This document shows, in pieces, positions 18,824-43,367 of a DNA stretch of 43,931 bases. The stretch is from a bacterium (GTDB lineage: Bacteria > UBP6 > UBA1177). The position numbers were made by a program, and so were the translations under genes. The DNA lies in NCBI GenBank assembly GCA_016290135.1, contig JAEESW010000019.1, forward strand, positions 1 through 43,931, in the 5' to 3' direction. Below the pieces are notes generated by a model. The model saw only the letters and a program-made list of their open reading frames with translations, searched no databases and was not told the origin of the DNA. The stretch's first letter is position 1; each line of letters opens with the position of its first letter.

Positions 18824-20152
18824 TTATCTGCAGTCCGAGGAATAGGTTATATCCGTAGGAGTGCTCTCCATGCCGGCCTTGGATTCGTTGGTGTTTCCGC
18901 TGAAATCCCAGAAAGCGACAGTGTCATCATCAACTGAAAGTACGGCAGGCGTGAAATCCTCAGTATATTTTGCCGTATCTGAAATCTTGATCGAGTCGAT
19001 CAAACCTTTGAAGTAAATACCGCCGGAAAGATTTGCACCGATAACGAGAGCTTCGTTAAGAGTATTTATGGTCGGAGCAGCTGCGTAATCTTTTGAAGAG
19101 ACCTGATGTCCGTCCTGGAAGAGAACCAGTTTGTAGGTCGTGGTCTGCTGCCACTGGTTGCCGGAAACCACTTTAGTATTAACCAGAGCAATGTGCGACC
19201 AGCCGTAAGAATAAGTGGTATAGCTCGGACTCGGCTGGACGGTTCCTGTTTTTGTCTGATACTGCTGTTTGTAGGAATAACCTACATATCCCATCAAAGT
19301 GTAGTAATTAGTGTCGTTATATGTTCCGAGAAATTTGTAACCGGTAAGAAGGTAAGCCGGAGTGGAAGAAGTCGTTCCCTTCCTGACTATAGGAATGTTT
19401 GAATTCGTTATATCTTCCTCAGCCTGTTTGATCCATGCTTCGATCGTCCAAGTCTCGTACGCAAGGTTCAGCGCGTCATTGCTGTCAACTTCAACTCTCG
19501 ACGACTCTCCGTTGAAAACTGCCGAACAATAGTTCATCTGTGCCTGAGACTTGCATACGCCGTTTGCATAAACATAACCGGTCGTGCATTTGTACTGACA
19601 TGGCTGCGGTTCTCCGTCGCCGTACTGAGTTTCATAGACAGGTCCCGGAACCCATGTTTCGGTATCGACATCATAGTATACTTTGTAACTCGAATCTCCG
19701 TTCCATTCGGAATTTGCAGGTTTTGCAGCAGTATCACAATTCTCGATCCTATAGCAGCTTTGTGACGAAGCATCCCAAGTGGTTCCCGTTTCAGCGAGAC
19801 ATTTTTCCTCATCGGTAACAGTCGGATCGGTCGGATTCGTCGGGTCGTCTGTCGGGTTCGTCGGGTCGTCCGTCGGATTCGTCGGATCATCGGTCGGGTT
19901 CGTCGGATCATCGGTCGGGTTCGTCGGATCGTCCGTCGGGTTCGTCGGGTCGTCCGTCGGATTCGTCGGGTCGTCCGTCGGGTTCGTCGGGTCCGTGTCA
20001 TCGGCAACCGTGTCGTTGACATCCGAATCGTCAACTATTTCAGCGCTGCCGGAATCAGGTTCATCGACAGGAACGAGCCTTTTCGGATTTTCTTCGCATC
20101 CGATCAGGAAAAAGAATAAACAAACGATGATCAAAACTTTGAATAATTTCAT
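18824..20152 (-). CDS. LamG-type lipoprotein with DPTNPTD repeat stalk
   Basis: A 442-residue surface lipoprotein. Lipobox LIGC (Cys19); acidic linker; eight perfect 7-residue repeats DPTNPTD (54-109) forming an extended stalk. Then a Cys-rich segment (about 117-208), and a C-terminal LamG/concanavalin-like jelly-roll (209-442) opening NYCSAVFNGESSRVEV and closing YSSDCR. The terminal cysteines could pair. LamG domains bind carbohydrates or proteins; no enzyme residues seen. Its Cys-rich segment resembles the NAxW module of the lipoprotein at 30392. It follows its paralog by 20 bp, with its own AGGAGG site, so both are likely on one mRNA. Confidence 0.8.
   Translation of the reverse strand: MKLFKVLIIVCLFFFLIGCEENPKRLVPVDEPDSGSAEIVDDSDVNDTVADDTDPTNPTDDPTNPTDDPTNPTDDPTNPTDDPTNPTDDPTNPTDDPTNPTDDPTNPTDPTVTDEEKCLAETGTTWDASSQSCYRIENCDTAAKPANSEWNGDSSYKVYYDVDTETWVPGPVYETQYGDGEPQPCQYKCTTGYVYANGVCKSQAQMNYCSAVFNGESSRVEVDSNDALNLAYETWTIEAWIKQAEEDITNSNIPIVRKGTTSSTPAYLLTGYKFLGTYNDTNYYTLMGYVGYSYKQQYQTKTGTVQPSPSYTTYSYGWSHIALVNTKVVSGNQWQQTTTYKLVLFQDGHQVSSKDYAAAPTINTLNEALVIGANLSGGIYFKGLIDSIKISDTAKYTEDFTPAVLSVDDDTVAFWDFSGNTNESKAGMESTPTDITYSSDCR
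19826..19993 (-). repeat. Eight in-frame 21-bp tandem repeats (DPTNPTD)
   Basis: Eight consecutive 21-bp units encode DPTNPTD. Units differ only at a few synonymous third positions, which suggests recent expansion by slippage or recombination; copy number may vary between strains. Confidence 0.9.
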
Positions 20153-20172: not shown

Positions 20173-21282
20173 CTAAAAAGCACAGTCCGTTGAATATGTT
20201 ATGTCAGTCGGAGTGCTGACCATATCATTTTCGTAGTCATTTGCATCGCCGCTGAAATCCCAGAAAGCGACCGTGTCACCGTCCACTGAAAGTTTTGCGG
20301 GCATGAAACTGCCGGTATATTTTGCAGTGTTCGAAATCTTTACAGAGTCGATAAGACCGCTGAAAGCTTTCGTTCCCGTTGAACCGATAAGAAGTACCTC
20401 GGTCGATGTCGAGATCGAAGGTGTCTGGTTCGAAGTGACGTTGCTCTCGTCGGAAGCCGCTTTCTGTCCGTTGATGTAAAGAGTGATGGTGGGTTTCTTC
20501 ATAACAAGCTGCGTGGTCATAGTCTGAACAAGAGCTATGTGGGTCCAGTCTCCCGAATTGACGGCCTTAGTGGTTTCAGCCGAAACTTCTGAAGAACTCA
20601 TCATTATCGAATAGGAAGCACTGCCTTTCATTGCGGTCGACGCGCTTCCCCAACTGCTTTTCTGATAGAAATCGGAAAGGAAGTATGTATAAGAGCTGCC
20701 GTTGCCTCCCCAGCCGCCGCTGCCTGCCGCTTTCTTTGCCACTATCGGAATCTCGTCGGTAGTCAGGTCGCCGGTCTGTTTGATCCACGCTTCGACAGTC
20801 CAAGTCTCAGAACTGAGATTCAGAGCGTCGTTGTGAGCGACTTCTATTTTGGAAGAATCACCGTTGAAAACCGCAGAGCAGTATGCAGGTTCAGTCGGGT
20901 TCGTAGGTTCTGTCGGGTCAGTCGGATTCGTAGGATCATCAGGATTCGTCGGATCGTCCGGATTCGTCGGTTCATCAGGATTCGTAGGATCGTCCGGATT
21001 CGTCGGTTCATCAGGATTCGTAGGATCGTCCGGATTCGTAGGATCGTCCGGATTTGCAGGATCGTCCGGATTCGTCGGATCGTCCGGATTCGTCGGATCT
21101 GTCGGGTTCGTCGGATCAGTCGGATTTGCAGGATCATCTGTCGGATCCGTCGGATCGGTCGGATCTGTGGTATCGGTGTTGTCACCGGATTCATCAATAG
21201 GAACAAGTCTTTTCGGGCTTTCCTCACAGGCAATCACAAAAAAGAACAAGCAAACAAGCGCTGAAATTTTAAAAATTTTCAT
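20173..21282 (-). CDS. LamG-type lipoprotein with PTNPDD repeat stalk (paralog of 18824-20152)
   Basis: A 369-residue lipoprotein with lipobox VIAC (Cys19) and the same ESPKRLVPIDE start as its neighbour. The stalk (about 40-132) is built from degenerate 3- and 6-residue units (DPT, DPTNPD, EPTNPD). It leads directly into a LamG-like domain (135-369) opening YCSAVFNGDSSKIEV and ending STDCAF. The Cys-rich segment of the neighbour is absent. It has the stronger promoter of the pair and is the first gene transcribed. Function unknown; surface binding through the LamG domain is inference. Confidence 0.8.
   Translation of the reverse strand: MKIFKISALVCLFFFVIACEESPKRLVPIDESGDNTDTTDPTDPTDPTDDPANPTDPTNPTDPTNPDDPTNPDDPANPDDPTNPDDPTNPDEPTNPDDPTNPDEPTNPDDPTNPDDPTNPTDPTEPTNPTEPAYCSAVFNGDSSKIEVAHNDALNLSSETWTVEAWIKQTGDLTTDEIPIVAKKAAGSGGWGGNGSSYTYFLSDFYQKSSWGSASTAMKGSASYSIMMSSSEVSAETTKAVNSGDWTHIALVQTMTTQLVMKKPTITLYINGQKAASDESNVTSNQTPSISTSTEVLLIGSTGTKAFSGLIDSVKISNTAKYTGSFMPAKLSVDGDTVAFWDFSGDANDYENDMVSTPTDITYSTDCAF
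20887..21165 (-). repeat. Degenerate in-frame 9/18-bp repeats (DPT, DPTNPD)
   Basis: Repeats encode short Asp-Pro-Thr and Asp-Pro-Thr-Asn-Pro-Asp units with occasional Ala or Glu substitutions. They are less uniform than the neighbouring gene's array, so probably older. Confidence 0.85.
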
Positions 21283-23838: not shown

Positions 23839-26655
23839 TTACCCTGCTTCCGCAACCTGAAGGCATGCATTATCTGTCCAGGAATATTCATCCTCACATT
23901 CACACTTATATCCTTCCTGCGACAGCGGGATGCACATTCCGGTCGAATTTTCCACTGCAGCACACGGATCTCCTGCACACGGGCTCGGTTCGCTTGAAAC
24001 GCAGCGGACACCCGCATTATAGAAAGAATCAGTATCCAAGGAAGCGAAGTCGGCGTTAGAAAAGTTCAGAGCATTCGTCTCCCCGTTTTCGACCCATAAG
24101 TATCCGGTATCACCAAAAACCGAATATCTGCCGTCCATAGTCATCTTGCACGGAGCATCTTCACAGTTGATGACAAGCGTCTGAAGCTCCGTTACTGACG
24201 GCAGTCTCCAGTATTTATCGGAACCTTCATTTAAAGACACGCAATAAGACTCCGCCTCCGAATAAGTCACATTCATAGAAATATCTGACCATGAAAGCCC
24301 TGTCTGCGGATCATTGTAGGGCGTTTCCTCACTGCTCAGGCTCTCGTCGAGAACACACCTGACGACAGTCGAAAAAACATAGCCGACCGAAGAAGAGTCC
24401 TCTTCATAAATACTGAGTTCTGAGAATCCTGATTTATCTTCATAAGGATCTATCACCCATACTGTGTCATAAACATGATCGTCGTTTTCAACTATGTCTC
24501 CGGATACGAGCATTTCGTAGTCTAAGAACTTCGATTCGAACACATAGTCCTCGTCGAAGCTGCATTTCGTCTCTTCGTAACAGCTTCTGTCGAGGCAACT
24601 TGCTGTAGTTACGCCGCATTCTCCGCCGACTTTGAGCTTGTCCTCTTTCATCAAAGTCCTGAGCTCGTCAACAGTCGGAAGTCTCCACTTGTTTTTGCCG
24701 TGCATAACCGCGTTAGTGCATGCTTCGGCGGCCGCAGTTCCGTACCATTCGTAATATCCGGTTTCTTCATCAGGTTCCATGATCACCATTGACCACACTA
24801 TTCCGTTTGCAGTGTCTCTGCACGGAGTGTAGCCTATCTTTTCGTCACATTCGGGAATGCCGTCAGCCGGAGCAGCATCAAGGTCGCTTCTCACGCAGCG
24901 GACTGAATAAAACTTTTCTTCCTCGCTGGAGAGACTGCTGAGTGTGCCGTCATTCATTGATACCGACCACTGATAGGTCCAGTAACCGACTTCAGGGAAA
25001 CCGAGGGAAGATGTCGAAACTACGAACTGCTCCGCCTCCATTCCAGGGAATGAAGATACTAAGCCTGTGCCGGCTTTAGAATAGTCGGCAAGCGTCATGA
25101 GTTCGTTCCTGTTGGGAAGTCTCCAGTCTTCATATCCTGCATATTCAAGATTTTCGCAGTATTCAAGAGCCTCTTTCCAGCTCTTTCCGCTGACAGAACC
25201 TTTCTGCCAGAGAAGATTAGTCGAGTGATCGAAAACGACTTTTTCACTCCCTTCACCACTCTCCTCATACACATTTTCACCGACTTTTCCGTATTCTTCG
25301 CCGCGGACACAGATATAGTTGACATTACTATAGTATGAACTCATTTCTTCTGCCAGAGTTAAATCTCCGTTCTGAGCCGAGTAATAGTAATTGGTCTCTC
25401 CCCCAACGGCCAGAAAAAACCCTCCGTGATCCTGCAAGTAGGTCTGCGGAAAGACATTGCTGTTTGTCAAAACGCTTTTATTGTGGACGGCAAGTGTATT
25501 AAGTTCTTTCGGGGTCGGGAATCTCCAGTCGTCGTATCCGTCATAGTCCAGTTCCGTGCAGAAAGTGTGCTCCTCAGTTTCGGTGTAGTCAACAGTTACA
25601 TCCGCAAAGAGCCATGTGAGTCCTGTGATATTGTCCTGCATTTCGTCTTCCTCGAGAGGAAACGTCTTAAAACTGCGCGGAACGCACGATCTTCTGATGG
25701 CATACTGAGCATCCTGACCGTAAAACTCTTCACCTTCCCCGGGACATTCGATGACTTTGCTGTTGTCGTTGACACAGAATGTAAAGCCTGTGCAGGGAAC
25801 CAGAGAATAAACTTTTTCGGGCTCGGGAACAATATCTTCATCAGCCGGTTCCGTCGGATCGTTATCATCATCAGGTTCTGCCGGTTCATCGTCATCAGGT
25901 TCTGCCGGTTCGTCATCGTCTGTTTCGGCGACAGGTTCGTCATCGTCGGGTTCGACATATTCTTTCGGAGTAAGCATAATGAAAGTGTATGCCGTGAAAT
26001 GGCCTGTCGTCATCATGATCGGGTCTCCTGCAGCACTCATCATTATCGGGTCTCCTGCCGCATTCGTCATGATCGGATCTCCTGCCGATGCAAGCATGAT
26101 CGGATCTCCTGCCGCTGCAAGCATTATCGGGTCTCCACCGGCACTCATCATAATCGGGTCACCGCCTGCGTTCAACATGATAGGATCGCCGCCTGCCGTC
26201 GTCATAAGCGGAGCACCATCCTCGTCTTTGCTCTGAAGAAGAAGCGCATAAGCACCGTGCTCGTCGTAGCTCCACTCGCCTTTTGACTCGTTGTAAACAG
26301 CTGCTGAGACGATTTTATTATCTACATCGATCTCGCTTGCCATCGTAATAATGACAGGCTTCTTGAAAACCGTGCCTGAGGGTTCGAATTCGATGACTTT
26401 TGTTATGACGTCAACATCATCGGTTCCCTTGTAACCTTCGGATTCATAAACAGTCATCGTAATCGTCGTGTCTTCATCAAGTGCGCCGGCAGGGATCTCG
26501 ACCGAAGTCTTTCCGTCGGAACTTTCGACAGTTCCGCCTTCCTCAGCCGTGATCTTCTTGGAAACACGCTCTTCGTAGTCGTGCGATTTCTTCTTGCTGC
26601 ACGAAACAGCGAAAACCGCGACAAAAATTAGAACCAGAATCAAAAACCTTTTCAT
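23839..26655 (-). CDS. Modular surface lipoprotein: ZU5-like domain with GDPIM repeats, GQD module, four DUF1566 domains, EGF-like tail
   Basis: A 938-residue lipoprotein. Lipobox AVSC (Cys19). ZU5/IPAGAL-like domain (about 36-225) with SVEIPAGALDEDTTITM and EFEPSGTVFKKPVIIT; its last hairpin is interrupted by seven GDPIM repeats (155-214) before TTGHFTAYTF. Acidic Pro/Asp/Glu linker (231-280). Four-Cys GQD module (288-324). Four DUF1566 (Lcl C-terminal-like) domains at about 340-452, 474-592, 610-770 and 778-886, each with a variant of DWRLPTxxEL and a closing RCV. EGF-like module (893-931). Strong GGAGG site before ATG. Lies 93 bp downstream of its larger paralog. Role unknown; extracellular display and binding are inference. 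Confidence 0.8.
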   Translation of the reverse strand: MKRFLILVLIFVAVFAVSCSKKKSHDYEERVSKKITAEEGGTVESSDGKTSVEIPAGALDEDTTITMTVYESEGYKGTDDVDVITKVIEFEPSGTVFKKPVIITMASEIDVDNKIVSAAVYNESKGEWSYDEHGAYALLLQSKDEDGAPLMTTAGGDPIMLNAGGDPIMMSAGGDPIMLAAAGDPIMLASAGDPIMTNAAGDPIMMSAAGDPIMMTTGHFTAYTFIMLTPKEYVEPDDDEPVAETDDDEPAEPDDDEPAEPDDDNDPTEPADEDIVPEPEKVYSLVPCTGFTFCVNDNSKVIECPGEGEEFYGQDAQYAIRRSCVPRSFKTFPLEEDEMQDNITGLTWLFADVTVDYTETEEHTFCTELDYDGYDDWRFPTPKELNTLAVHNKSVLTNSNVFPQTYLQDHGGFFLAVGGETNYYYSAQNGDLTLAEEMSSYYSNVNYICVRGEEYGKVGENVYEESGEGSEKVVFDHSTNLLWQKGSVSGKSWKEALEYCENLEYAGYEDWRLPNRNELMTLADYSKAGTGLVSSFPGMEAEQFVVSTSSLGFPEVGYWTYQWSVSMNDGTLSSLSSEEEKFYSVRCVRSDLDAAPADGIPECDEKIGYTPCRDTANGIVWSMVIMEPDEETGYYEWYGTAAAEACTNAVMHGKNKWRLPTVDELRTLMKEDKLKVGGECGVTTASCLDRSCYEETKCSFDEDYVFESKFLDYEMLVSGDIVENDDHVYDTVWVIDPYEDKSGFSELSIYEEDSSSVGYVFSTVVRCVLDESLSSEETPYNDPQTGLSWSDISMNVTYSEAESYCVSLNEGSDKYWRLPSVTELQTLVINCEDAPCKMTMDGRYSVFGDTGYLWVENGETNALNFSNADFASLDTDSFYNAGVRCVSSEPSPCAGDPCAAVENSTGMCIPLSQEGYKCECEDEYSWTDNACLQVAEAG
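26014..26193 (-). repeat. In-frame array of seven (A/G)GDPIM repeats
   Basis: Seven units of 8-9 residues share the core GDPIM, with variable two- to four-residue linkers such as LNA, MSA, TNA. Codons for the same residues differ between units (for example ATA or ATC, GGA or GGG context), so the array is not a fresh slippage product. Confidence 0.9.
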
Positions 26656-26748: not shown

Positions 26749-29700
26749 CTAATTCGACGGTAAAACCTGCGAATCCTTCCTGACACAGCGGAAATCTCGT
26801 ATGTAGTCTTTCTCGGCGTAGCCTACACTTCCGGTTTCAAAACTTACGACCCAGGTATCATGGTCGGGATCTTCGTCACGGAGAGAAGAAGACCAGAACA
26901 TGCCGTTGTCGCCGAGCTTGCTGTAAAAACCTTTTTTGTTGCCCTCAGATTCGCATTCGCAGTCTTCAGAACTCAAAAGAGTGCCTGCCAAACTATCCGG
27001 ATCTGATATCGGGCATGCTCCGTTTGCCTGTGCGCCTTCGCAGTTTTGTATCAGCGTTCTCAGTTCATCGATGGTCGGAAGTCTCCAGTCATCGTAACCG
27101 CCTTCTTCAAGTTCGTCGCAGTATGAAACGGCATCGCTCCATTCGTCAAAAGAGAGCACAGACCAGGTCAGGTGAGTTTCCGGATCAGTGTATGTATCCA
27201 TGATAACACAGTTCATGTCGACCCAGGAGAACCTGCTCGAGACCCAACTATAGTTTTCTTCACACACACAGGAATATTCCTCGGCAGATTCCGGAACACA
27301 TCCGGTTGCATGAGAATCATCGGCACAAGGATTTGCATCGCACGGGTTCAAACATTTTTCGCCGTCCCAGAAATAGTTTTCCACGCATCCGCAGTGATAT
27401 ATTTCAGAAGAATCAGCAAAACACCCGGCTGAGTGCTGGACACCGGCGCACGGATCGTTTTTGCACGGTCCGGAACCTTCCGAAACGCAGCGGATCCTTT
27501 CTGCAGAATCTTTCCCGCCGGTGCGAACAATTCTCGAAAAATCAATAGCAAAATAAGATTCATCCCCGTAGTATTCACTCGACAGCAAAGTGGAAATATC
27601 TCCGAGGACAGAATATTTTCCGTTTATGTCGACCGGGCATCCGTCTTCTTCTCCGCAGTCGTTTCGGACAAGTGTCCTGAGTTCATCCACTGTCGGAAGT
27701 CTCCACCAGTGTTCGTGATCTCTCTGGGAAAGTTCTTTGCAGTAGTATTTTCCGCTGTAGACCCAGATCCAGTCAGGTGAAATGTCAGACCAGAGGAGAT
27801 CTGTTTCGGGGTCAAGCCATGGGGTTTTCTTGTAATCCGGCAGAGTTTCGTCAAGAACGCATCTCTGGACAAGTTCCGAAACGGAAATACTGTAATCAGT
27901 CTCATTCAAGGATCCTTCTTTTACATTTACAGCCCACAGATTCCAAATACGATCACCGTACAAGGTGCCCGAATACATAATTCCGTAATCGTAAAGAAGC
28001 GTCTGCGAACTATCGTCGCCTGTGCAGTCATCTTCACTGAAGCAGGATTCTTCAGAACATTCCGTCGTTACACCGCAGGTTCCGCCTGTTTTAAGTTTGT
28101 CTGTAGTGACAATCGAGCGGATTTCGTCTATTGTGGGCATCCTCCATTTATTTGAACCGCTTTCGTTCAGATAACGGCACATTTCCGGAAGTACGGAAAC
28201 ACCGATTGTAGAATCAGACTCCCAATAATAGAAGTACGGATAACCTGCAAAAATTTCTGGATACAGCACTGACGACCAGATCGTTCCGTTCGCATCTCTG
28301 CAAGGTCCTGTACCGGTTTCGTCGCAATCGGGGATTTCTGTCTTTTCAGTGAGATCGCTCCTTACGCAACGGACTGAACCAGGCTCCCAGTAATCACCCT
28401 TGCCCATCAGCAACACGTGACCGTACGGCTCTATAGACCATACCGGATCATATTGTGTTGCTGTCGTAGTCGAACTCCACAAGAAAAACTCTTCCCTCTT
28501 AAATCCCGGGAACGATGAAACGACCTCTTCGTCTGCTTTTGAATAGTCGATAAGCGTCACCAGTTCGTTTTTATTGGGAAGCCTCCAGTCGTCAAACCCT
28601 GCATATTCAAGGTTTTCGCAGTATGCAAGAGCCTCCTTCCAGGTTTCTTTCTTAACAAAATTTTTCTGCCAAAGCAGATTGGTGCTTGAATCAAAAACTG
28701 TTCCATCACCGTTTTCTATGTAGTTTTCCGGATTTATTTTTCCGTATTCATCGCCGCTCACACAAATAAGTAAAGCCTCTATGTATCCGAAGTAGCTTAC
28801 TCTGCCAATATAAGGAAAGTACTGGTAAGATTCAATTGAAGTATGCGCCGCGACTTCGTCCTCGCTGCCCTCTTCAACTCCCTGCATCCAGTAGATATAA
28901 TAAGGATCTGATGCAGCACCGTAAATCCTTCCGTGATCAGCAAGTGTCAGAATTTCTTTCGGAGTCGGAAGACGCCAGTCGTCGATCCCGCCGTAAGAAA
29001 TACTGCAGCCATTCTGCAATTCGGCAAAAGTGCCATATGAACCGGTGAACCACCAGGTCAAACCGGTCGCATTGTCCTTGATAAAAGTATTTTCGGCATC
29101 GTCAGGGTTGGGAATGTCGGTGTAGCTGTGATGCGCCACACACCCTTTTCTCGCCGCATACTGCGCATCCTGACCGTAAAAATCTTCTCCCTCTTTCGGG
29201 CATAAAATCTGCTGTTTTTCCTCATCGTTTATACAGATTGCCGAATTTGTGCACAAAACTTTAGAATAAACAAGTTCAGGTTCGGGAATGATAATGTCTT
29301 CGTCTTCCGTTTCATCGGGAATTTCGTCATCATCAGATTCCGTGTCACCGTCAGGTTCAGCTGTTTCGGTATCGCCGTCATCAATTGGCTCGTCGTCATC
29401 AGGTTCTGTCGTATCTGTATCGCCGTCATCGGCCGGTTCAGCAGCTTCGCCTTTTCTCGGATCAAATGCGATCAAGGTAAAAGTAGTGAAGTGACCAGTC
29501 GTCATCATTATCGGGTCTCCGGCCGCCGCCTTCATGATGGGATCTCCGGCAGCCGAAGTCATGATCGGATCTCCCGCAGCATTCGTCATTATCGGGTCTC
29601 CTGCTGCATCCTTCGATACAAGCATGATCGGATCTCCCGCCGCACTCATCATTATCGGGTCCCCGGCTGCATTCGTCATTATCGGATCACCGCCGGCATT

Positions 29701-30219
29701 CGTCATCATTATCGGGTCTCCACCGGCCGTCGTCAGATTTCCGTTATCGAGAACGACATCTTTGCCGTCGGTCGTCTGCATGATCGGATCGCCGCCGTCT
29801 TCTTTGTCGAGGATCAGATAGAATCCCTGACTGTAGCTCCATTTCTTTTCTGATTCGTTGTATACCGCAGCGGAGATCGTCTTTTTTTCGATCTTTTCGT
29901 CAGCCGCTATCGTTATTATTACAGGCTTTTTGAAGATGGTTCCGGAGGGCTCGAATTCAACTACCTTGCTCACGATCTTTCCGTTTTCATCGGAATATCC
30001 TTCCGCGTCGTACACCGTCATCGTGATCGTCGTATCCCCCTCCAGTGCGCCGGCAGGAACTTCCACCGATGTCTTTCCGTCGGAACTTTCTACCGTTCCG
30101 CCCTCTTCCGCCTTGATCTCTTTCGAGACACGCTCCTCATAGTCGTGCGACTTCTTTTTGCTGCACGAAACAGCAAAAACCGCGGCAAAAACCATAATCA
30201 GGCAAAAAACACGTTTCAT
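26749..30219 (-). CDS. Modular surface lipoprotein, larger paralog: ZU5-like, GDPIM repeats, GQD module, five DUF1566 domains, EGF-like modules
   Basis: An 1156-residue lipoprotein, near-identical to its neighbour over the first 70 residues (lipobox AVSC, Cys19; SHDYEERVSK). ZU5-like domain (36-250) carries nine GDPIM units (142-239), one of them separated by a GKDVVLDNG insert. Acidic linker (258-312). GQD module (323-360). DUF1566 domains at about 380-490, 508-625, 645-800 and 810-925. Two EGF-like modules (about 930-1010) with NDPCAGVQHSAGC and NPCADDSHATGC follow, then a fifth DUF1566 (about 1040-1150). Compared with the neighbour it has gained one DUF1566 and one EGF unit. Divergent from the plus-strand lipoprotein at 30392. 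Function unknown. Confidence 0.8.
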   Translation of the reverse strand: MKRVFCLIMVFAAVFAVSCSKKKSHDYEERVSKEIKAEEGGTVESSDGKTSVEVPAGALEGDTTITMTVYDAEGYSDENGKIVSKVVEFEPSGTIFKKPVIITIAADEKIEKKTISAAVYNESEKKWSYSQGFYLILDKEDGGDPIMQTTDGKDVVLDNGNLTTAGGDPIMMTNAGGDPIMTNAAGDPIMMSAAGDPIMLVSKDAAGDPIMTNAAGDPIMTSAAGDPIMKAAAGDPIMMTTGHFTTFTLIAFDPRKGEAAEPADDGDTDTTEPDDDEPIDDGDTETAEPDGDTESDDDEIPDETEDEDIIIPEPELVYSKVLCTNSAICINDEEKQQILCPKEGEDFYGQDAQYAARKGCVAHHSYTDIPNPDDAENTFIKDNATGLTWWFTGSYGTFAELQNGCSISYGGIDDWRLPTPKEILTLADHGRIYGAASDPYYIYWMQGVEEGSEDEVAAHTSIESYQYFPYIGRVSYFGYIEALLICVSGDEYGKINPENYIENGDGTVFDSSTNLLWQKNFVKKETWKEALAYCENLEYAGFDDWRLPNKNELVTLIDYSKADEEVVSSFPGFKREEFFLWSSTTTATQYDPVWSIEPYGHVLLMGKGDYWEPGSVRCVRSDLTEKTEIPDCDETGTGPCRDANGTIWSSVLYPEIFAGYPYFYYWESDSTIGVSVLPEMCRYLNESGSNKWRMPTIDEIRSIVTTDKLKTGGTCGVTTECSEESCFSEDDCTGDDSSQTLLYDYGIMYSGTLYGDRIWNLWAVNVKEGSLNETDYSISVSELVQRCVLDETLPDYKKTPWLDPETDLLWSDISPDWIWVYSGKYYCKELSQRDHEHWWRLPTVDELRTLVRNDCGEEDGCPVDINGKYSVLGDISTLLSSEYYGDESYFAIDFSRIVRTGGKDSAERIRCVSEGSGPCKNDPCAGVQHSAGCFADSSEIYHCGCVENYFWDGEKCLNPCDANPCADDSHATGCVPESAEEYSCVCEENYSWVSSRFSWVDMNCVIMDTYTDPETHLTWSVLSFDEWSDAVSYCDELEEGGYDDWRLPTIDELRTLIQNCEGAQANGACPISDPDSLAGTLLSSEDCECESEGNKKGFYSKLGDNGMFWSSSLRDEDPDHDTWVVSFETGSVGYAEKDYIRDFRCVRKDSQVLPSN
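29503..29796 (-). repeat. In-frame array of nine GDPIM repeats
   Basis: Nine GDPIM cores spread over residues 142-239; most units are AAGDPIM plus TN, MS, TS or KA. One unit has the longer linker LVSKD and the first is split off by about 20 residues. It is the same array type as at 26014-26193, with different copy number. Confidence 0.9.
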
Positions 30220-43062: not shown

Positions 43063-43281
43063 GCAACTACAACAACATCGTCATGTAAAACGAACATTTC
43101 TGCACTTAGCCAAAATATCCAGTTGTTTTCGTCACTTAAACTGAGCACATTTTAATCCCCGCAAATTTTTTTGGCGATTTTATGTAATCCCCCGAAATTT
43201 TACGTGTAGACGCACCGAAAGTTTATAGGGTTATAACCCGATCAAATTACAAAAAAACAAGGGATAAAAAATCAAGAAAAT

Positions 43282-43367
43282 TACCGCAAAAAGTTGAAGT
43301 AAAATACCGCAAAAAGCTGAAGTAAAACACCGCAAAAAGTTGAAGTAGAATACCGCAAATAATAGAA
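43282..43367. repeat. 23-bp tandem repeat, 3.7 copies (iteron-like)
   Basis: Three full 23-bp units start at 43282, 43305 and 43328 with consensus TACCGCAAAAAGTTGAAGTA plus three A-rich bases. A partial fourth at 43351 decays after TACCGCAAA. Units differ at one or two positions. Stops in all readings make it non-coding. Period and spacing resemble protein-binding iterons, but no replication gene is present. Confidence 0.85.

Follow-up and report, generated by a model that had tools for sequence, protein, structure and literature searches.

The window, i.e., the whole stretch of 43,931 nucleotides that was analysed, belongs to a 98% complete MAG of 2.47 Mb from the bacterial lineage UBP6. It encodes a lipoprotein of 938 residues and a longer paralog of the same architecture, both of which carry tandem arrays of the pentapeptide GDPIM. 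The features of the two genes are as follows.

23839..26655, minus strand: open reading frame of the 938-aa lipoprotein (ORF, Pfam domains)
26599..26655, minus strand: lipoprotein signal peptide with lipobox, MKRFLILVLIFVAVFAVSC, read from the sequence
26335..26547, minus strand: ZU5 domain core, residues 37-107 (Pfam PF00791, AlphaFold2, Foldseek)
about 26203..26217, minus strand: degenerate unit GAPLM, read from the sequence
26014..26190, minus strand: seven perfect GDPIM units with a 9-residue period
25993..26001, minus strand: HF/T motif directly after the array, at the position that the HF/S autocleavage motif has in PIDD
25810..25962, minus strand: acidic linker, EPDDDEPAEPDDD..., read from the sequence
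24889..25239, minus strand: best of four Lcl_C (DUF1566-like) domains, residues 473-589 (Pfam PF07603)
26749..30219, minus strand: paralog, a 1156-aa lipoprotein of the same architecture with five Lcl_C stretches (ORF, Pfam)
29506..29793, minus strand: paralog array of nine GDPIM units (GDPIM-coding 15-mer pattern)
29485..29493, minus strand: HF/T motif after the paralog array (sequence and alignment)

From its N-terminus, the 938-residue protein consists of the signal peptide with lipobox, the ZU5 domain, the GDPIM array, the acidic linker, the Lcl_C region (four stretches in Pfam, 4.4e-54) and a weakly recognised C-terminal EGF-like stretch. The seven units lie between EWSYDEHGAYALLL and TTGHFTAYTF, where an earlier, sequence-only reading had placed them, and the residue preceding the motif (position -1) is G in three units and A in four. 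GAPLM precedes the first perfect unit by one 9-residue period. That the paralog shares the repeat at a different copy number was also borne out, with nine units against seven and 16 in the window. The tandem GDPIM DNA pattern was matched 6 times in the window, compared with 0.00 times in 100 shuffles of it.

The ZU5 host domain and the HF/[ST] motif

The host domain of the window array, described in the sequence-only reading as ZU5-like, is a genuine ZU5 domain. PF00791 scored 25.2 and 26.3 bits in the two window proteins, above the cut-off of 21. Structure prediction, which had been proposed as a check, modelled the ZU5 part well (AlphaFold2 with 31 aligned relatives, pLDDT mostly 72-89) and gave the window array a pLDDT of about 30. 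The modelled domain matched ankyrin ZU5 (3f59, 3kbu), 3ud2 and UNC5b (3g5b) in Foldseek with a probability of 1.00 and a TM score by target of about 0.5 over about 105 columns (single-domain entries). The array is inserted, as suspected, into the last loop of the ZU5 domain, just before the last strand. As an observation on gene organization, five paralogous ZU5-GDPIM lipoproteins follow one another in a row on a 24.5-kb contig (L031, G000:C61, 1-16000).

Immediately after the array, H and F are invariant and are followed by S or T in 31 of 31 aligned domains, a count that refers to array-bearing ZU5 domains, array-free bacterial ones being too few to judge its generality. PIDD undergoes autocleavage at HF/S, immediately after its ZU5 domains, and CARD8 and NLRP1 at SF/S (PMC3210808). 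The HF/S or SF/S motif that marks autoproteolytic ZU5 domains of the PIDD and NLRP1/CARD8 type is found in the array ZU5 domains as well, in the form HF/[ST]. The window domain shares its fold with the ZU5 domains of ankyrin, UNC5 and PIDD, and the HF/S site of PIDD is placed like the HF/[ST] motif of the window. Unlike these animal counterparts, it belongs to an exported bacterial lipoprotein, bears an inserted array and is accompanied by no detected UPA or death domain. HF/[ST] resembles the PIDD site in sequence and position only, and the ZU5 domain may be a candidate for self-cleavage. If cleavage took place as in PIDD, the lipid-anchored part would end in the array as its C-terminal tail, and the ZU5 array proteins may be a bacterial instance of the HF/S autoproteolysis that animal PIDD and NLRP1 undergo.

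G013, a genome from the same genus in which GDPIM units are absent, has a ZU5 protein with HLG at the position of HF/[ST]. In the ZU5 protein at L212 (G013:C47), the place of the array is taken by a long loop in which Gly-turn segments repeat loosely.

Distribution and protein settings of the arrays

The GDPIM-coding 15-mer GGNGAYCCNATHATG was matched 111 times in the source genome, and a control pattern not at all. Counting the units protein by protein gives the same figure, 111, in 15 exported proteins; the first 100 matches are located individually, and the assignment of the remaining 11 rests on the equality of the counts. Arrays were present in 24 of the 28 UBP6 genomes examined, the exceptions being G013 and three genomes placed only to the phylum UBP6. 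Among the matches listed, the array contigs are from UBP6 (UBA1177, UBA1209), mostly from rumen. We know of no cultured member of UBP6.

Outside UBP6, 9 of 139 genomes from the same family as a Sphaerochaetaceae MAG carried arrays; in a sample of the spirochaete phylum they occurred in 1 of 393 genomes, which was the query genome itself. In the order Bacteroidales, an array was detected in 1 of 393 genomes; a Bacteroidales lipoprotein (L109) has two units and another Bacteroidales locus (L154), which may be a chance match, three. Pattern matches at L156 (Acidobacteriota) and L171 (recorded as Bacillota), which consist of two or three direct 6-residue repeats, were set aside as chance, and none of 399 sampled genomes from the phylum of L171 had an array. 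Viral contigs held no relative of the window protein; four viral pattern matches were likewise attributed to chance, with no ORF holding two units. Phages and plasmids each gave two weak matches, all to virion, peroxidase or calcium-binding proteins and with identities under 50%.

The sequence-only reading had described the array as an insertion in a ZU5-like domain. This holds for the window proteins and does not hold in general: with at least six unrelated settings, and two phyla besides UBP6, arrays are not tied to ZU5. In UBP6, they are found in the last loop of ZU5; in one or two hairpins of giant lipoproteins of roughly 2700-3500 aa; in a coiled-coil exported protein (L039, L062, L104, L105); just before an alpha-amylase domain (L096); in an MG2/MG3 macroglobulin-like lipoprotein (L078); and in a right-handed beta-helix lipoprotein (L134). 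In some relatives of the giant lipoproteins, GDPIM units separate TVRAKLVY from ISEDS, while the source genome has only a short turn there; in genome G013, the giant array proteins had no match. The array proteins of Sphaerochaetaceae are small (109-131 aa) and consist of a signal sequence followed by the array, most of them ending exactly in AAGDPIM. Their genes have no conserved neighbour beyond close relatives. A lipobox-like N-terminus was recognised by pattern in 83 of 96 array ORFs and by eye in most of the other 13, while L039 has an ordinary signal peptide. Judged by these N-termini, almost all complete array proteins are predicted lipoproteins.

Constraint, coordination and spacing of the units

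Redundant repeats usually drift. In 102 distinct UBP6 arrays, 740 units are perfect and 13 deviate by one residue, ten of them at I, three at M and none at G, D or P (n=753 perfect or one-off units). Neighbouring units nevertheless show 46% synonymous difference at the four degenerate codons. In the orthologs of a C28-type gene from eight species, the motif shows 313 synonymous (31.9%) and 0 of 980 amino-acid differences, a zero that is unaffected by the non-independence of the pairwise comparisons. The same orthologs have 32.5% synonymous and 2.5% amino-acid differences in the spacers, and 19.7% and 9.4%, respectively, in the ZU5 part; the array is therefore the most constrained of the parts compared. 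Codon comparisons of this kind indicate that selection acts on the peptide, and the strong purifying selection agrees with the earlier suggestion that the repeat is functional. The idea of an expanding element found no support. Paralogs differ in copy number, but it is stable between orthologs: each of the eight species has seven units, and the spacers hardly vary.

The residue at -1 is specific to the genome. In a red deer MAG, S occupies this position in 42 of 44 units from six proteins, and in JAGOEX in 10 of 10 units. SW_4_4 has Q in 10 of 10 units from two proteins, and JAGAAT has L or M in 39 of 43 units from six proteins. Most other genomes have A or G, and UBA1209 has a mixture of G, M, L and A. 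The class of the residue matches the genome majority in 105 of 108 proteins, compared with a mean of 87.4 and a maximum of 93 in 20,000 permutations that ignore kinship. The Ser codons at -1 (TCA/TCG/TCC) mirror the Ala codons (GCA/GCG/GCC), which argues for change unit by unit rather than for copying of DNA. We regard such coordination across unrelated proteins as the strongest pointer to a specific reader, or else to mutual contact between arrays.

Regarding spacing, a 9-residue period accounts for 446 of 629 cases. Other arrays have a period of 6 residues, (AGDPIM)n, or of 10-13 residues, and multiples of three make up 64 of the 89 spacings other than 6 and 9. This preference, together with the conserved spacers, hints at a regular structure and not a loose string. 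For a Sphaerochaetaceae array, the top AlphaFold2 model has beta strands every 9 residues (mean pLDDT 69), and the other four models reach a pLDDT of 53-58. Foldseek returned no match at E below 0.065 for the spirochaete model, whose agreement is low. The metal- or ligand-binding spine of the sequence-only reading found no backing: there was no evidence for metal, AlphaFold2 gives the window array no structure, and simple metal chelation would not predict that G, P, I and M are so strictly conserved.

Candidate functions of the repeat

At slightly less than an even chance, the reading we favour is that xGDPIM is a short linear tag that exported proteins carry in many copies and that a cognate factor of the same cell recognises in trans. 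It rests on three observations, namely the conservation of the unit at the protein level far beyond that of the host domains, its portability between proteins and the coordinated -1 residue of each genome. The lack of structure in the window array beside a well-modelled ZU5 domain also speaks for it. From these observations we infer a reader and a purpose in anchoring or clustering. The array would serve as a flexible, surface-exposed multivalent ligand, and the reader, a binding protein or an enzyme, would touch the -1 residue together with G-D-P-I-M, so that an altered pocket in the partner would impose the same change on most of the genome's units. For the ZU5 proteins, the likely role of the array would be to anchor or cluster the Lcl_C-bearing lipoproteins via many weak contacts. 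Against the tag, a multivalent ligand would not usually keep every one of 111 redundant units under such strong constraint. The conserved spacers, the multiples-of-three spacing, the beta-strand model of the spirochaete array and the mixed -1 residues of UBA1209 are further points against it.

The main rival of the tag is a self-assembling structural repeat, which on the whole we regard as unlikely, if clearly the most serious of the alternatives. Here, each unit of about nine residues would form a turn (AAGDP) and a short strand (IMxx), and units would stack across proteins into a sheet or solenoid; ladders of identical residues would have to match across proteins, which would account for the genome-wide agreement at -1. 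The dominance of the 9-residue period, the favoured multiples of three, the strands in the top Sphaerochaetaceae model and the conservation of spacers between orthologs are all in keeping with it, as is the ZU5 loop of G013, which has lost GDPIM and still keeps loosely repeated Gly-turn, beta-like segments. However, a single solenoid would hardly accommodate arrays with spacings of 6 or of 10-13 residues, AlphaFold2 shows no structure for the window array, and only one of the five spirochaete models is moderately confident, with no structural match at the E-value given above.

Decidedly less probable is a multicopy precursor of secreted peptides, with xGDPIM hexapeptides set free by proteolysis to act as signals specific to each species. 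In yeast, the alpha-factor precursors contain the pheromone unit in repeated copies, and the likeness lies in a repeated identical peptide within an exported precursor and in species-specific, coordinated substitution. The identical units on exported proteins that such a precursor calls for are indeed present, all units of a genome having the same strictly conserved core with diverse codons and one residue varying between species in a coordinated way; moreover, the small exported proteins of spirochaetes are almost only array, several ending exactly in AAGDPIM. In contrast to the alpha-factor precursors, large folded lipoproteins hold most arrays within their loops, and cutting there would break them. 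The spacers are conserved as well, the 6-residue arrays lack any spacer, and no uniform processing site stood out.

A divergent RTX-type calcium-binding nonapeptide (beta-roll) is very improbable. The period of nine, the G-D pair and the following hydrophobic residue (I/L) are common to both, and weak phmmer similarity to the RTX chains of adenylate cyclase and hemolysin (E 0.16-0.37) was the only kind of match that a sequence search of the PDB yielded. Nevertheless, membership fails, because every GDPIM unit has Pro where GGxGxDxUx has its calcium-binding Asp (position 6) and the arrays gave no Pfam match to HemolysinCabind (PF00353) at E up to 10. In addition, the GG pair is usually missing, spacings of 6 and 10 residues also occur, of which the former misfits a beta-roll, and calcium would not explain the genome-specific -1 residue.

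Least credible of all is an element at the DNA level, i.e., a minisatellite, a selfish repeat or a DNA/RNA signal (internal Shine-Dalgarno sequence and ATG, GGAGAYCCGATMATG) read in frame by chance: a mild codon preference (CCG 81% vs 50%, GGA 51% vs 32% background) and, for half of the source-genome units, a GGAG some 8 nt ahead of ATG stand against 28 distinct 15-mers among 111 units, the limited use of GGA in the S genome (9 of 44 units) and the L/M genome (5 of 43), genome occurrences equal in number to the units in the GDPIM frame, and 32% synonymous versus zero amino-acid change in orthologs, and these codon data refute it as the main explanation and lead to the rejection of an internal translation start as well.

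Returning to the tag, a broader version of it is held with a little more reserve. UBP6 would possess a protein-tag system in which xGDPIM arrays in the loops of unrelated exported proteins are recognised by one co-evolving reader, whose specificity for x would have shifted several times, dragging nearly all copies along; a few rumen spirochaetes, and perhaps Bacteroidales, would carry the peptide, possibly joining or mimicking the system. More than a hundred copies per genome with G, D and P unchanged, codons near saturation and a -1 residue that moves in step predict a specific recogniser. If true, this bears on the organization of surface proteins in rumen bacteria and on the occurrence of the same peptide in spirochaetes of the same habitat. 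To our knowledge, no bacterial system combines an array of one exact pentapeptide across unrelated exported proteins with a neighbour residue coordinated genome-wide. The sequence-only reading knew of no described repeat of this sequence, and the motif had no match in Pfam, NCBIfam, the PDB or the literature, where the string GDPIM appears in unrelated uses only. Considering this absence from the libraries searched and the proposed mechanism, the arrays would be categorically new.

Two further known families gave weak matches. The PGDYG protein family (PF14083) recurred as a weak match to arrays over about 27 profile positions only, its best score of 21.6 bits falling below the gathering cut-off of 27 bits. 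A spirochaete array weakly matched E. coli YdhT (PRK09946) in NCBIfam (E 4.7e-4) with 19.8 bits, far from the equivalog cut-off of 300; YdhT differs in its core, GxxxRI, and has no recognisable signal peptide. The ydhT gene of E. coli K-12 (L248:4751-5560) itself encodes short GxxxRIxSxG-like repeats of about 10 residues.

The window holds other repeats. Near the contig end, the 23-bp sequence AAGTAAAATACCGCAAAAAGTTG is directly repeated in tandem (3.7 copies, 43274-43359) without spacers, and hence is not CRISPR-like. Two adjoining lipoproteins (18824-20152 and 20173-21282) contain long DPTNPTD/PTNPDDP repeats (19830-19993 and 20923-21156), apparently followed in both by a LamG/concanavalin-like domain.
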